Source: an uncultured Dehalococcoidia bacterium (GTDB lineage Bacteria; Chloroflexota; Dehalococcoidia; Lucifugimonadales; Lucifugimonadaceae). From it: a stretch of 64,000 nucleotides of DNA. How positions within the stretch are numbered: position 1 is the first letter of the stretch; each line of letters opens with the position of its first letter. The position numbers and the translations under genes are program-made. The notes beneath the pieces are model-generated. The model saw nothing but the letters and a program-made list of their open reading frames with translations, had not been told where the DNA came from and searched no databases. The stretch spans positions 124,001 to 188,000 of the forward strand of contig OY282385.1 of NCBI GenBank assembly GCA_958295935.1, in the 5' to 3' direction. Positions 5,617 to 54,506 of this stretch are shown here, in pieces.

Positions 5617-5886
5617 GGCCGTGCTAGGCGGGGAGCTAGCGGTGCCCTGTACCCGCAATCCGCTTTAGCGGGGCTTAATTCCCCCTGGAGGCGCCGTAGC
5701 AGGGGTCACTGCAGGCCGTCGAGCGGCATTGAGAGCTTGGTCCCGCGCGGCGAGGACTCACGAACCCCGTCAGGTCCGGAAGGAAGCAGCGGTAAGGGAG
5801 AACCCTCGGGTGCCGCGGGACAGCCGGGCTTGAGCTGATCCGGCTGACCACACTCGGGCGCGGGGCCGAAATGGGGGTGCACGGCC
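5617..5886 (+). ncRNA. ffs: Signal recognition particle RNA, large (Bacillus-type, with Alu domain)
   Basis: The domain IV core is exact: CAGGTCCGGAAGGAAGCAGC at 5771-5790, with the GGAA tetraloop and the symmetric loop that binds Ffh. The 5' Alu domain is also recognisable from the GTGCTAGG, TAGCGGTGCCCTGTACCCGC and AATCCGC elements that match the B. subtilis scRNA. The ends are set by a perfect eight-base terminal helix (GGCCGTGC at 5617 with GCACGGCC at 5879-5886), giving about 270 nt. A TAGCAT element just upstream, preceded by TG, could be the -10 box. This RNA works with Ffh and with FtsY, which is encoded at 26167-27096. Confidence 0.95.
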
Positions 5887-23344: not shown

Positions 23345-24595
23345 CTAGCTTCGCGCCGCAAGACGCTGACGGCGCCCCACCAGCTCCATCTCTTCCTGCC
23401 TCGTCGTTACCGAACCGTCGAGCCTGGCTCGCTTGGCCTCGTCCAGCAGCCGCCCGATCTCCGGCCCCTGCGGGATTCCGGCAGCCAGCAGGTCGTCCCC
23501 CGTTATCTCAGGCCGCACGTGGCGCAGCTTCTCCATGTAGGCGTCCAGCCGGGCCTTCTGGGGACTGGCCGCCGCGATCTCACGCTGCGCATCCAGAGCC
23601 GCCGGGGGAAACTCCGACAACAGACCTGCCACTTCGCTCGGCGACAGGTCATCACGCTTCAATAGAACTGAAATACTCCGGTAGTGCGGCGCCGCCAAAA
23701 TCACTTCCCGCCACTCCGATGGCGGAGCCAACCGAGCCACAAGCGCACGCGCCTCGCCGGTTGTCAGAGCCGCAGTGGCAAGCGCCAGGTAGAAGATGAA
23801 CTCCCTGCCAGGTAAGCGGCGCATCGCCGCAAGCGCAGCCCGGCCTATGCGAAATGACGGGTCGATGGCCGCCAGCAGACCCCTCTCATCAGCCATCTCC
23901 AGCAAGTCCGCCTGGACCGGCTCGCACAGCATCTTCTCAAGCTCTGCCCTCATGCGCGCCGAACTCACGCGGTCCACGTAGCCGGAATCCCGCTGCATGA
24001 GAAGCACAGTAGAGGGCTTGATACGGAAGCTGAGCCGGTGCTCGTAACGAAGCGCCCGGAAGATCCTGGTGGGATCGTCCCTGAAACTATCGTCGTGCAG
24101 CACGCGGATCATCTTCCTCGCGGTGTCCCCAAAGCCTCCGTGCGGGTCGATCAGATCGCCCCAGCTTGACGGCGCAAGGCTTACTGACATGGCGTTGACC
24201 GTGAAGTCTCGACGGGCCAGGTCGTCCTCGATGCCCGACGGCTCCACCACCGGCAAGGCCCCAGGCTCCTCGTAAGTCTCTCTGCGAGCTGTTGCCACGT
24301 CCACCTGGCCCATGGGCATCGAAACCCTGGCCGTACCGAACTCCTGAGAAGTCCGCTCCACCTTCCCGTTCCCATCCGCGGCAAGAAGATCGGCGAACTC
24401 GTGAGCGTCTCCAACCACGGAAACGTCCAGGTCCTCCGGATGGCGGCCCAAAATCGTGTCGCGCACAGGCCCGCCCACCAGGTAGGCGGCTTTCGCAGGC
24501 CCATCCGGCCTGGACGCCAGCCTCCCAACCAAGCGAAGACTATGCAACGCCTCCTGGGGAAGCGTTCGCTGGAGCAGAGCGGCTATATTCGGCAA
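23345..24595 (-). CDS. cca: tRNA nucleotidyltransferase/poly(A) polymerase family protein
   Basis: 416 residues of class II nucleotidyltransferase. The N-terminal catalytic motif VGGPVRDTILGRHPEDLDVS (residues 40-59) contains the metal-binding Asp pair. RRDFTVNAM and the DDPTRIFRALRYEHRL segment follow as the usual motifs of the head and neck. The C terminus is helical. It adds or repairs the tRNA 3' CCA, or part of it, since some bacteria split C- and A-adding between two enzymes. The only tRNA in this window already encodes CCA. It is convergent with the ogg-like gene and divergent from the DsbA selenoprotein gene. Confidence 0.9.
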   Translation of the reverse strand: MPNIAALLQRTLPQEALHSLRLVGRLASRPDGPAKAAYLVGGPVRDTILGRHPEDLDVSVVGDAHEFADLLAADGNGKVERTSQEFGTARVSMPMGQVDVATARRETYEEPGALPVVEPSGIEDDLARRDFTVNAMSVSLAPSSWGDLIDPHGGFGDTARKMIRVLHDDSFRDDPTRIFRALRYEHRLSFRIKPSTVLLMQRDSGYVDRVSSARMRAELEKMLCEPVQADLLEMADERGLLAAIDPSFRIGRAALAAMRRLPGREFIFYLALATAALTTGEARALVARLAPPSEWREVILAAPHYRSISVLLKRDDLSPSEVAGLLSEFPPAALDAQREIAAASPQKARLDAYMEKLRHVRPEITGDDLLAAGIPQGPEIGRLLDEAKRARLDGSVTTRQEEMELVGRRQRLAARS

Positions 24596-24758
24596 TCTGG
24601 ACTACCTTCAGGGTTCTACGAGTCTATGCAATTCTACTCTCTAGGGCATGTGAAACTCGACTGAATGATTAGACGGTTTACGTCAACTCTGCGCATGTAT
24701 CATCAGAATGTCAGCCATAGACTTGGAACAAACAGAGAGTCAAGCAAGCGAGGAACTT

Positions 24759-25394
24759 ATGTCCACTGAAACGCCTTTGAAGATGGAAGTGTTCATCGAC
24801 TACACCTGACCGTGGGTTCGTCAGACGGCTGTTTGGCTGTCCAGAGTTCAGGAAGAGCTTGGCGATGGGCTTGAGATCGAGTACCGCAGCTTCGTTCTGG
24901 AGCAGGCCAACTCACGACATGGGGAAGGATGGAAGGCATGGGAACAGGGAGACGACTACGTAAGCCGCGGCCTTGACTCGCTGCGAGGCGGCGTCGCGGC
25001 GCGCAAACAGGGCAGAGGCGCGCACACCGCGTACATGCTGGCGGTACTCGATGCCAAGCACGTCGAACGCAGAGACGTACGCTCCCGCGAGGCCGTCTTC
25101 GGCTGCGCCGAAAGCGCGGGTCTCGACATGGAAAGGTTCAAGCGCGACTTCGACGACCCGGCAGCCCTGCGGGAAATAGCGCGCGACCACGAATACGCCG
25201 CCTCAGAGGGCATATTCGGTACCCCCACCTTCAAGTTCCAGGACGGGTCGCTGGCATTCCTGAAGATGTACACGCCGCCCGAATCCGAAGCCATAACCGC
25301 CTTTCAACACTTCGTTGGAATGGCGAGCGGAAGGAAATACTTCGGCGAGTTGAAGCGGCCGCAACCCCCGTGGCCGCGAGGCGCATTGGATTAG
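24759..25394 (+). CDS. DsbA-like thiol oxidoreductase, selenoprotein (FrnE-type)
   Basis: 211 residues if the in-frame TGA at 24807-24809 is read as Sec17. The N terminus runs MEVFIDYT-U-PWV, where the family has CPWC or CPWx, so Sec replaces the catalytic N-terminal cysteine and the second position is Val20. The remaining DsbA features are intact: a long helical insertion (residues about 60-140) and the cis-proline loop GIFGTPTFKF. Nothing else interrupts the frame. I chose the ATG with GAGGA upstream; an in-frame ATG 51 bases earlier has no Shine-Dalgarno. There is no signal peptide, so it is probably cytoplasmic as in FrnE-type proteins. Standard gene calling would report only the fragment after the TGA. 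It is followed at once by rnc. Confidence 0.9.
24824..24841 (+). promoter_or_regulatory. Bacterial SECIS-like hairpin of the DsbA-like gene
   Basis: GACGGC pairs with GCTGTC (six pairs including one G-U) and closes a six-base loop UGUUUG. The loop begins 20 nt after the TGA and has G in its second position, as bacterial SECIS models require. The distance and the U-G-U start match the hairpin behind the TGA of the DUF3179 gene. Folding was done by eye. Confidence 0.7.
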
Positions 25395-25396
25395 CC

Positions 25397-26134
25397 TTGC
25401 CAACTAACCTCCCCGACCGCTCCGCCCTCTCAGCCGTTCAGAAAGCTTTGCAAATCGAATTCGCCGACTCCGATCTGTTGAGATTGGCCCTCACTCACAA
25501 GTCGTTTGTGAACGAATACCCGGATGCGGGCGTGGAATCCAATGAAAGACTGGAGTTCCTGGGAGACGGCGTAGTTAACTTCGTGGTCGCTCGAAACCTC
25601 TACCGGCGGATGCCGGAAGCGCCGGAAGGAGAACTGACCAACAGGCGCTCCCACGCAGTCAGGCGGGAAGCCCTCGCTTCGGCTGCCGAGCGCATCGGGC
25701 TGGGCAGCCACCTCGTCATGGGCCGGGGCGAAGCCGCGACCGGCGGCGCACAACGCCCTACCAATCTGGCCAACGCCTTCGAGGCATTGTCCGGCGCCGT
25801 CTTTCTCGACAGGGGCTTCGACGAATGCGAGAAGCTCCTGCTCGGCTGGCTCGGACCGGAAATCGACCAAGCCCTTCAACTCCGGAGCCCAAAAGACCCA
25901 AAGTCGCTGCTGCAAGAGATCGTTCAGCGAAGCGGGATTTCCCCGCCCACGTACCGCCTGGCGGACTGCGGCGAGCAGGATTATCGAAATCGATTTGCCG
26001 CAGAAGCCCTGATCGACGGAGAGGTCATGGGAACCGGCGTCGGCGGCAGGAAGATTGACGCAGAGCGAGCCGCAGCGCAGGACGCCCTGAACAATCACGC
26101 TATCGCAGCGGTATCCCGTCAAGCCGACACATAG
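25397..26134 (+). CDS. rnc: Ribonuclease III
   Basis: RNase III cleaves double-stranded RNA in rRNA and mRNA processing. The signature NERLEFLGDGVVNFVVA (about residues 48-64) and the second metal-binding segment EALSGAVFLDRG are present, followed by a double-stranded-RNA-binding domain from DPKSLLQEIVQ to the C terminus. The length of 245 residues is typical. The start is uncertain: TTG here, directly after the DsbA stop, or a GTG 27 bases upstream that would overlap the DsbA gene. Either way it is in one unit with the selenoprotein gene and ftsY, a common rnc-ftsY pairing. Confidence 0.94.
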   Translation: MPTNLPDRSALSAVQKALQIEFADSDLLRLALTHKSFVNEYPDAGVESNERLEFLGDGVVNFVVARNLYRRMPEAPEGELTNRRSHAVRREALASAAERIGLGSHLVMGRGEAATGGAQRPTNLANAFEALSGAVFLDRGFDECEKLLLGWLGPEIDQALQLRSPKDPKSLLQEIVQRSGISPPTYRLADCGEQDYRNRFAAEALIDGEVMGTGVGGRKIDAERAAAQDALNNHAIAAVSRQADT

Positions 26135-54430: not shown

Positions 54431-54506
54431 TGGCGCCCCCGGCAGGATTTGAACCCGCGACCGTCTGCTTAGAAGGCAGCTGCTCTGTCCACTGAGCTAC
54501 GGGGGC
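54431..54506 (-). tRNA. tRNA-Arg (anticodon TCT)
   Basis: On the minus strand the cloverleaf is complete: acceptor GCCCCCG with CGGGGGC, D-arm GCTC...GAGC, anticodon loop CTTCTAA with anticodon TCT, T-arm GCGGG-TTCAAAT-CCTGC, discriminator G and an encoded 3' CCA. It is 76 nt including CCA. The top pair of the anticodon stem is a G-A mismatch. It reads AGA/AGG arginine codons. A TATATC box about 13 bases upstream on the minus strand could be the -10. Confidence 0.97.

Follow-up and report, generated by a model that had tools for sequence, protein, structure and literature searches.

The window (the whole stretch of DNA analysed here, 64,000 nucleotides from an uncultured Dehalococcoidia bacterium) carries on its plus strand a gene for a putative DsbA-like selenoprotein of 211 amino acids. 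This gene extends over positions 24759-25394, from an ATG at 24759 to a TAG at 25392-25394, when TGA is translated as U, and a likely Shine-Dalgarno sequence, GAGGAA, is visible on the same strand at 24750-24755. The TGA at 24807-24809 (plus strand) is the sole stop codon within the 211 codons. It corresponds to codon 17, in the motif D14-Y-T-U17-P18-W-V, and the N-terminal part of the protein reads MSTETPLKMEVFIDYT-U-PWV. A first-pass annotation of this DNA had reported a TGA giving U-P-W-V in a frame of 211 codons with no other stop, which is confirmed. Shortly downstream lies a SECIS-like hairpin, GACGGCU-GUUU-GGCUGUC, on the plus strand at 24824-24841 (arms 24824-24830 and 24835-24841), the position of which is kept across TGA forms. 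The gene is flanked by a divergent tRNA nucleotidyltransferase (cca)-like gene on the minus strand (23345-24595) and by an RNase III (rnc)-like gene on the plus strand (25397-26134), for which the listed open reading frame starts with a GTG at 25370. The names of these neighbours, and of ftsY further on, are presumptive. Elsewhere, the window contains a bacterial large SRP RNA at 5619-5884 (RF01854, 173.5 bits) and a tRNA gene on the minus strand at 54434-54506 (RF00005, 67.8 bits).

The product matches the Pfam profile DSBA (PF01323) with 56.4 bits, for a gathering score of 25.6 (E 4e-15). None of the NCBIfam profiles scored above cut-off on it, and annotation pipelines may, therefore, miss or truncate the DsbA-like Sec family. 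The AlphaFold2 model has a mean pLDDT of 93.6 and a pTM of 0.90. By both profile and fold, the closest solved structure is DR2335 (PDB 7dk9; profile E 1e-26; Z 24.3, 2.1 Å over 195 residues), and the next fold matches, at Z 15-18, are Rv2466c-type proteins, GST kappa, YjbH, FrnE, and DsbM.

A homolog search in the genomes of 60 relatives yielded matches in 36 genomes, with exactly one in-frame TGA in most of these homologs, and a wider search in 294 genomes of the class added further ones. Codon 17 is TGA in 38 of the homologs read (the window's own counted), spread over many genera and families, and TGC or TGT in nine. The closest dozen relatives are 54-67% identical to the window protein, and this identity is maintained on both sides of the TGA. 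D14, U/C17, and P18 are invariant in a 46-row alignment (A1), where V20 is conserved at 90% or more. Downstream of the TGA, comparison with eight relatives gives 0.51-0.67 differences per third codon position and 0.16-0.36 per second position, a third-position excess that is expected for a translated frame. In stop-free syntenic homologs, the residue aligned opposite the TGA is Cys. The active site of the Cys homologs is CPWV, CPFV, or CPYV, and among solved proteins the single-Cys DR2335 comes closest, so that the FrnE label given in the first-pass annotation does not hold. Cys-form relatives with a name are mostly MAGs of Chloroflexi, Dehalococcoidia, SAR202, Thermomicrobiales, and Dormibacterota, one being labelled Nocardiopsaceae. 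A single-protein query of a contig collection gave no match, and an alignment-based query returned Cys forms, since its pattern back-translates Cys.

In the host genome (one contig, 2,750,180 bases), a tRNA-Sec with a UCA anticodon (70 bits) is present, and profile searches detected SelA (516 bits), SelB (337 bits), and SelD (381 bits). The search for Sec machinery proposed in the first-pass annotation thus had a positive outcome. The SelD gene (L017, G000:C1:969298-973224) has its own in-frame TGA in the motif CGG-U-AGK, a known Sec site of SelD, and encodes a second selenoprotein of this genome. Across the 60-genome set, SelB is over cut-off in every genome with a TGA form and SelA is present in all of them but one (G007, 86% complete), while the TGA form never occurs in genomes having neither SelA nor SelB over cut-off. 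Seven genomes of this set have the Cys form: G004, G005, and G015 are without SelA and SelB, and G016, G026, G035, and G044 (the latter assigned to the Cys form because its frame contains no stop) retain both, so that the link between the Sec or Cys form and the machinery is not one-to-one. In the Cys-form genome G035 (locus L056), the SelB match (G035:C57:3808-5550) contains a TAA, possibly due to machinery decaying after a Sec-to-Cys switch, or to a sequencing error.

These data bear on two other ways of reading the TGA. Were it a true stop, or a miscalled TGC or TGT, in a decaying frame, a TGA replacing Cys would look identical in one genome alone, and the window hairpin taken by itself is not significant. 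Nevertheless, the same codon is TGA in the 38 homologs read, from many genera and families, and the frame after it is maintained, with its third-position excess and no further stop; the homologs refute a pseudogene or sequencing error in practice, and its probability is negligible. The UGA might instead be decoded as an amino acid other than Sec, through table 4-like reassignment to Trp or general suppression, which would also account for readthrough in a DsbA-like gene. However, the stop-free homologs have Cys, not Trp, at the aligned position, and tRNA-Sec (UCA) and SelA/B/D are encoded in the genome, which makes this second possibility extremely improbable. Judging from the sequences, UGA codon 17 almost certainly encodes Sec. 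Its location at the catalytic position of the DsbA fold, as proposed in the first-pass annotation, is strongly supported by the TGA and Cys homologs and by the machinery.

The hairpin constitutes the weaker limb of the case for Sec, which stands more firmly on TGA conservation and on the machinery. In the window, it consists of six pairs closing a UGUUUG loop, as first described, or of seven with U24830-G24835 paired and a GUUU loop. The distance of 20 nt initially attributed to it is that of the loop: the hairpin starts 14 nt past the UGA, and the apical loop 20-21 nt past it. In the bSECIS model, an apical loop of 3-9 nt, with a G among its first two nucleotides, begins 16-37 nt from the UGA (PMC13188914). 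The window hairpin, with a G within the first two loop positions, fits this model, though it is not significant alone (z -0.85 against dinucleotide shuffles, the MFE structure using a competing pairing, and p about 0.27 when compared with synonymous recodings). Several close sisters have an AUUUG loop, with no early G.

Conservation of a hairpin in sister genomes with the TGA was a point on which the first-pass annotation had staked its reading, and most of the 38 TGA forms do keep one at a similar distance, to an extent that the encoded protein does not require. Within the permitted place, the best hairpin of these forms has a mean of -7.7 kcal/mol versus -4.1 kcal/mol in synonymous recodings of their genes, with p <0.1 in 21 of 38, bearing in mind that the rows are related and do not constitute independent tests, and that the place searched was picked after viewing the alignment and follows the published distance range. 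For the nine Cys forms, the corresponding values are -3.5 and -2.3 (p <0.1 in two), and the hairpin is mostly weaker or displaced; the TGA forms of G007 and G137 also have weak hairpins. Out of several ways of testing the hairpin, only the position-restricted recoding test clearly separates Sec from Cys forms. The folding energy of the whole region, compared with synonymous recodings, carries little information (mean z of -0.88 in Sec and -0.64 in Cys forms). Counts of paired cells and the covariation score are above all 500 column shuffles, which related sequences can produce, and a comparable covariation score is obtained when the partner is slid by -3. RNAalifold found no consensus structure over all TGA forms, probably because the pairing register shifts by one between clades. 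We read these observations as a putative SECIS, a hairpin that TGA forms would keep at a fixed distance under selection, with flexible pairing.

Sec and Cys forms occupy the same neighbourhood. In many loci, the cca-like gene lies upstream in divergent orientation; the rnc-like gene directly follows in most, and ftsY comes next in many. A tree of 63 proteins, built after masking of the active-site column, has Sec and Cys rows in alternation and requires seven Sec/Cys changes, at least five of which are forced by well-supported branches. Taken together, the shared synteny, the Sec machinery, and the recurrent Sec/Cys switches document a DsbA-fold selenoprotein family. The junction with the downstream gene is tight: two nt past the TAG, at 25397, is a TTG with an equivalent in close relatives, a candidate alternative start for the rnc-like gene. 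Between 25370 and 25400, there is no space for a separate leader between the selenoprotein gene and the rnc-like frame. Readthrough of the upstream UGA and translation of rnc may, accordingly, be coupled.

Regarding function, coding, Sec/Cys exchange, machinery, and the predicted fold are supported. We infer the physical insertion of Sec, the chemistry, the substrate, and the resolving thiol as follows. SelB and tRNA-Sec would decode UGA 17 as Sec, guided by the downstream hairpin, a step that the sequence data strongly support. The protein would be a single-selenol DsbA-fold oxidoreductase, probably cytosolic. In the model, Sec17 is predicted at the N-terminus of helix 1, the place of the nucleophilic Cys in DsbA folds, and the cis-Pro loop GTP (154-156) is expected opposite to it. 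The selenolate would most likely attack a disulfide or a (hydro)peroxide, and the resulting Se-S (mixed selenosulfide) or Se-OH (selenenic acid) intermediate would then be reduced by an outside thiol. Sec/Cys17 is the sole conserved Cys-type position, Cys occurring only sporadically elsewhere (46-row alignment and tree set). This is why Sec17 would be resolved from outside, a monoselenol mechanism to which we give about an even chance. The first-pass annotation rightly stated that Sec would have no local resolving thiol, although this is a family trait and not the result of Sec substitution. Cys115 was considered as a resolving thiol and ruled out, as it is not conserved. As regards low-molecular-weight thiols, a BshC (bacillithiol ligase) profile gave no match in 21 genomes, and an MshC (mycothiol) search in the host genome gave only a below-cut-off match, probably a cysteinyl-tRNA synthetase.

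Two variations on this mechanism deserve to be weighed. The resolving Cys could come from a thioredoxin- or glutaredoxin-like partner in a two-protein relay, a variant of the outside-thiol mechanism that accords with the absence of a conserved internal Cys; monothiol redoxins often operate in this way, with a separate partner protein. No partner gene was found, however, the conserved neighbours being cca, rnc, and ftsY rather than redoxins, and such a relay, while conceivable, is rather doubtful. A larger departure would be that Sec17 acts as in glutathione transferase kappa (GSTK) or HCCA isomerase: with an activated thiol cofactor, it would catalyse thiol transfer or isomerisation instead of disulfide or peroxide reduction. 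These enzymes share the DsbA-derived fold (Z about 16-17.6 for GSTK and 15.8 for HCCA isomerase) and, as here, have one active-site position without a resolving Cys, but this position is occupied by Ser in both, and they rank well below DR2335, and slightly below Rv2466c, in Z. In addition, Sec and Cys replace each other in the DsbA-like family, which indicates redox chemistry, and a GSTK- or HCCA-like activity is thus unlikely. The selenoprotein reading and the oxidoreductase class, taken together, are highly probable. A stronger claim would be a long shot: that of a widespread Chloroflexota single-selenol DsbA-fold enzyme, encoded at a conserved cca-rnc-ftsY locus, that lacks an internal resolving thiol and has a chemistry undescribed for any selenoprotein. 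On this view, should rnc be translationally coupled to the gene, RNase III output could likewise depend on UGA readthrough, and hence on selenium.

DsbA-like selenoproteins were known from other bacteria, as the first-pass annotation had stated, with UxxV and DxxUP subfamilies tabulated in the literature. The GOS survey of 2008 lists 'DsbA 3, pfam01323, UxxV', which counts 5 selenoproteins and 72 homologs with Cys (PMC2398784), and a review of 2026 includes 'DsbA-like protein form 2, PF01323, DxxUP, MDP6049977.1', labelled 'crotonase/enoyl-CoA hydratase family protein' (PMC13188914). The Chloroflexota family belongs to the same Pfam family and shows both D-x-x-U-P and U-x-x-V, the likeness being one of listed motifs. 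Selenoproteins of this kind are, thus, already tabulated, and the present DsbA-like Sec gene is a well-supported further member. In a limited literature search, no paper was found on a DsbA-like Sec family in SAR202 or other Chloroflexota.

The Rv2466c-type mycothiol-linked reductases (4nxi, 4zil) resemble the window protein in fold, at Z about 18. They are CxxC-type enzymes, a motif absent here, and the host genome is without MshC over cut-off. FrnE of D. radiodurans (5cnw) and its cd03024 relatives share the DsbA fold and, like the window protein, are predicted to be cytosolic. In FrnE, the active site is CP(W/F)C and a C-terminal CxxxxC is frequent (PMC8945050). The window protein (UPWV) has neither, and CPxC is missing even from its Cys homologs. 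The closest likeness is that of DR2335 from Deinococcus radiodurans (7dk9, and 7dka for C24S), which matches the window protein over its full-length fold, with 26% identity. For this protein, no functional data were known as of PMC8945050. It also has a single conserved Cys followed by Pro and an aromatic residue (CPYA), with no CxxC, and differs in having Cys where the window protein has Sec. As this Cys counterpart has a structure, the Sec form offers a handle on the role of single-Cys DsbA-like proteins.
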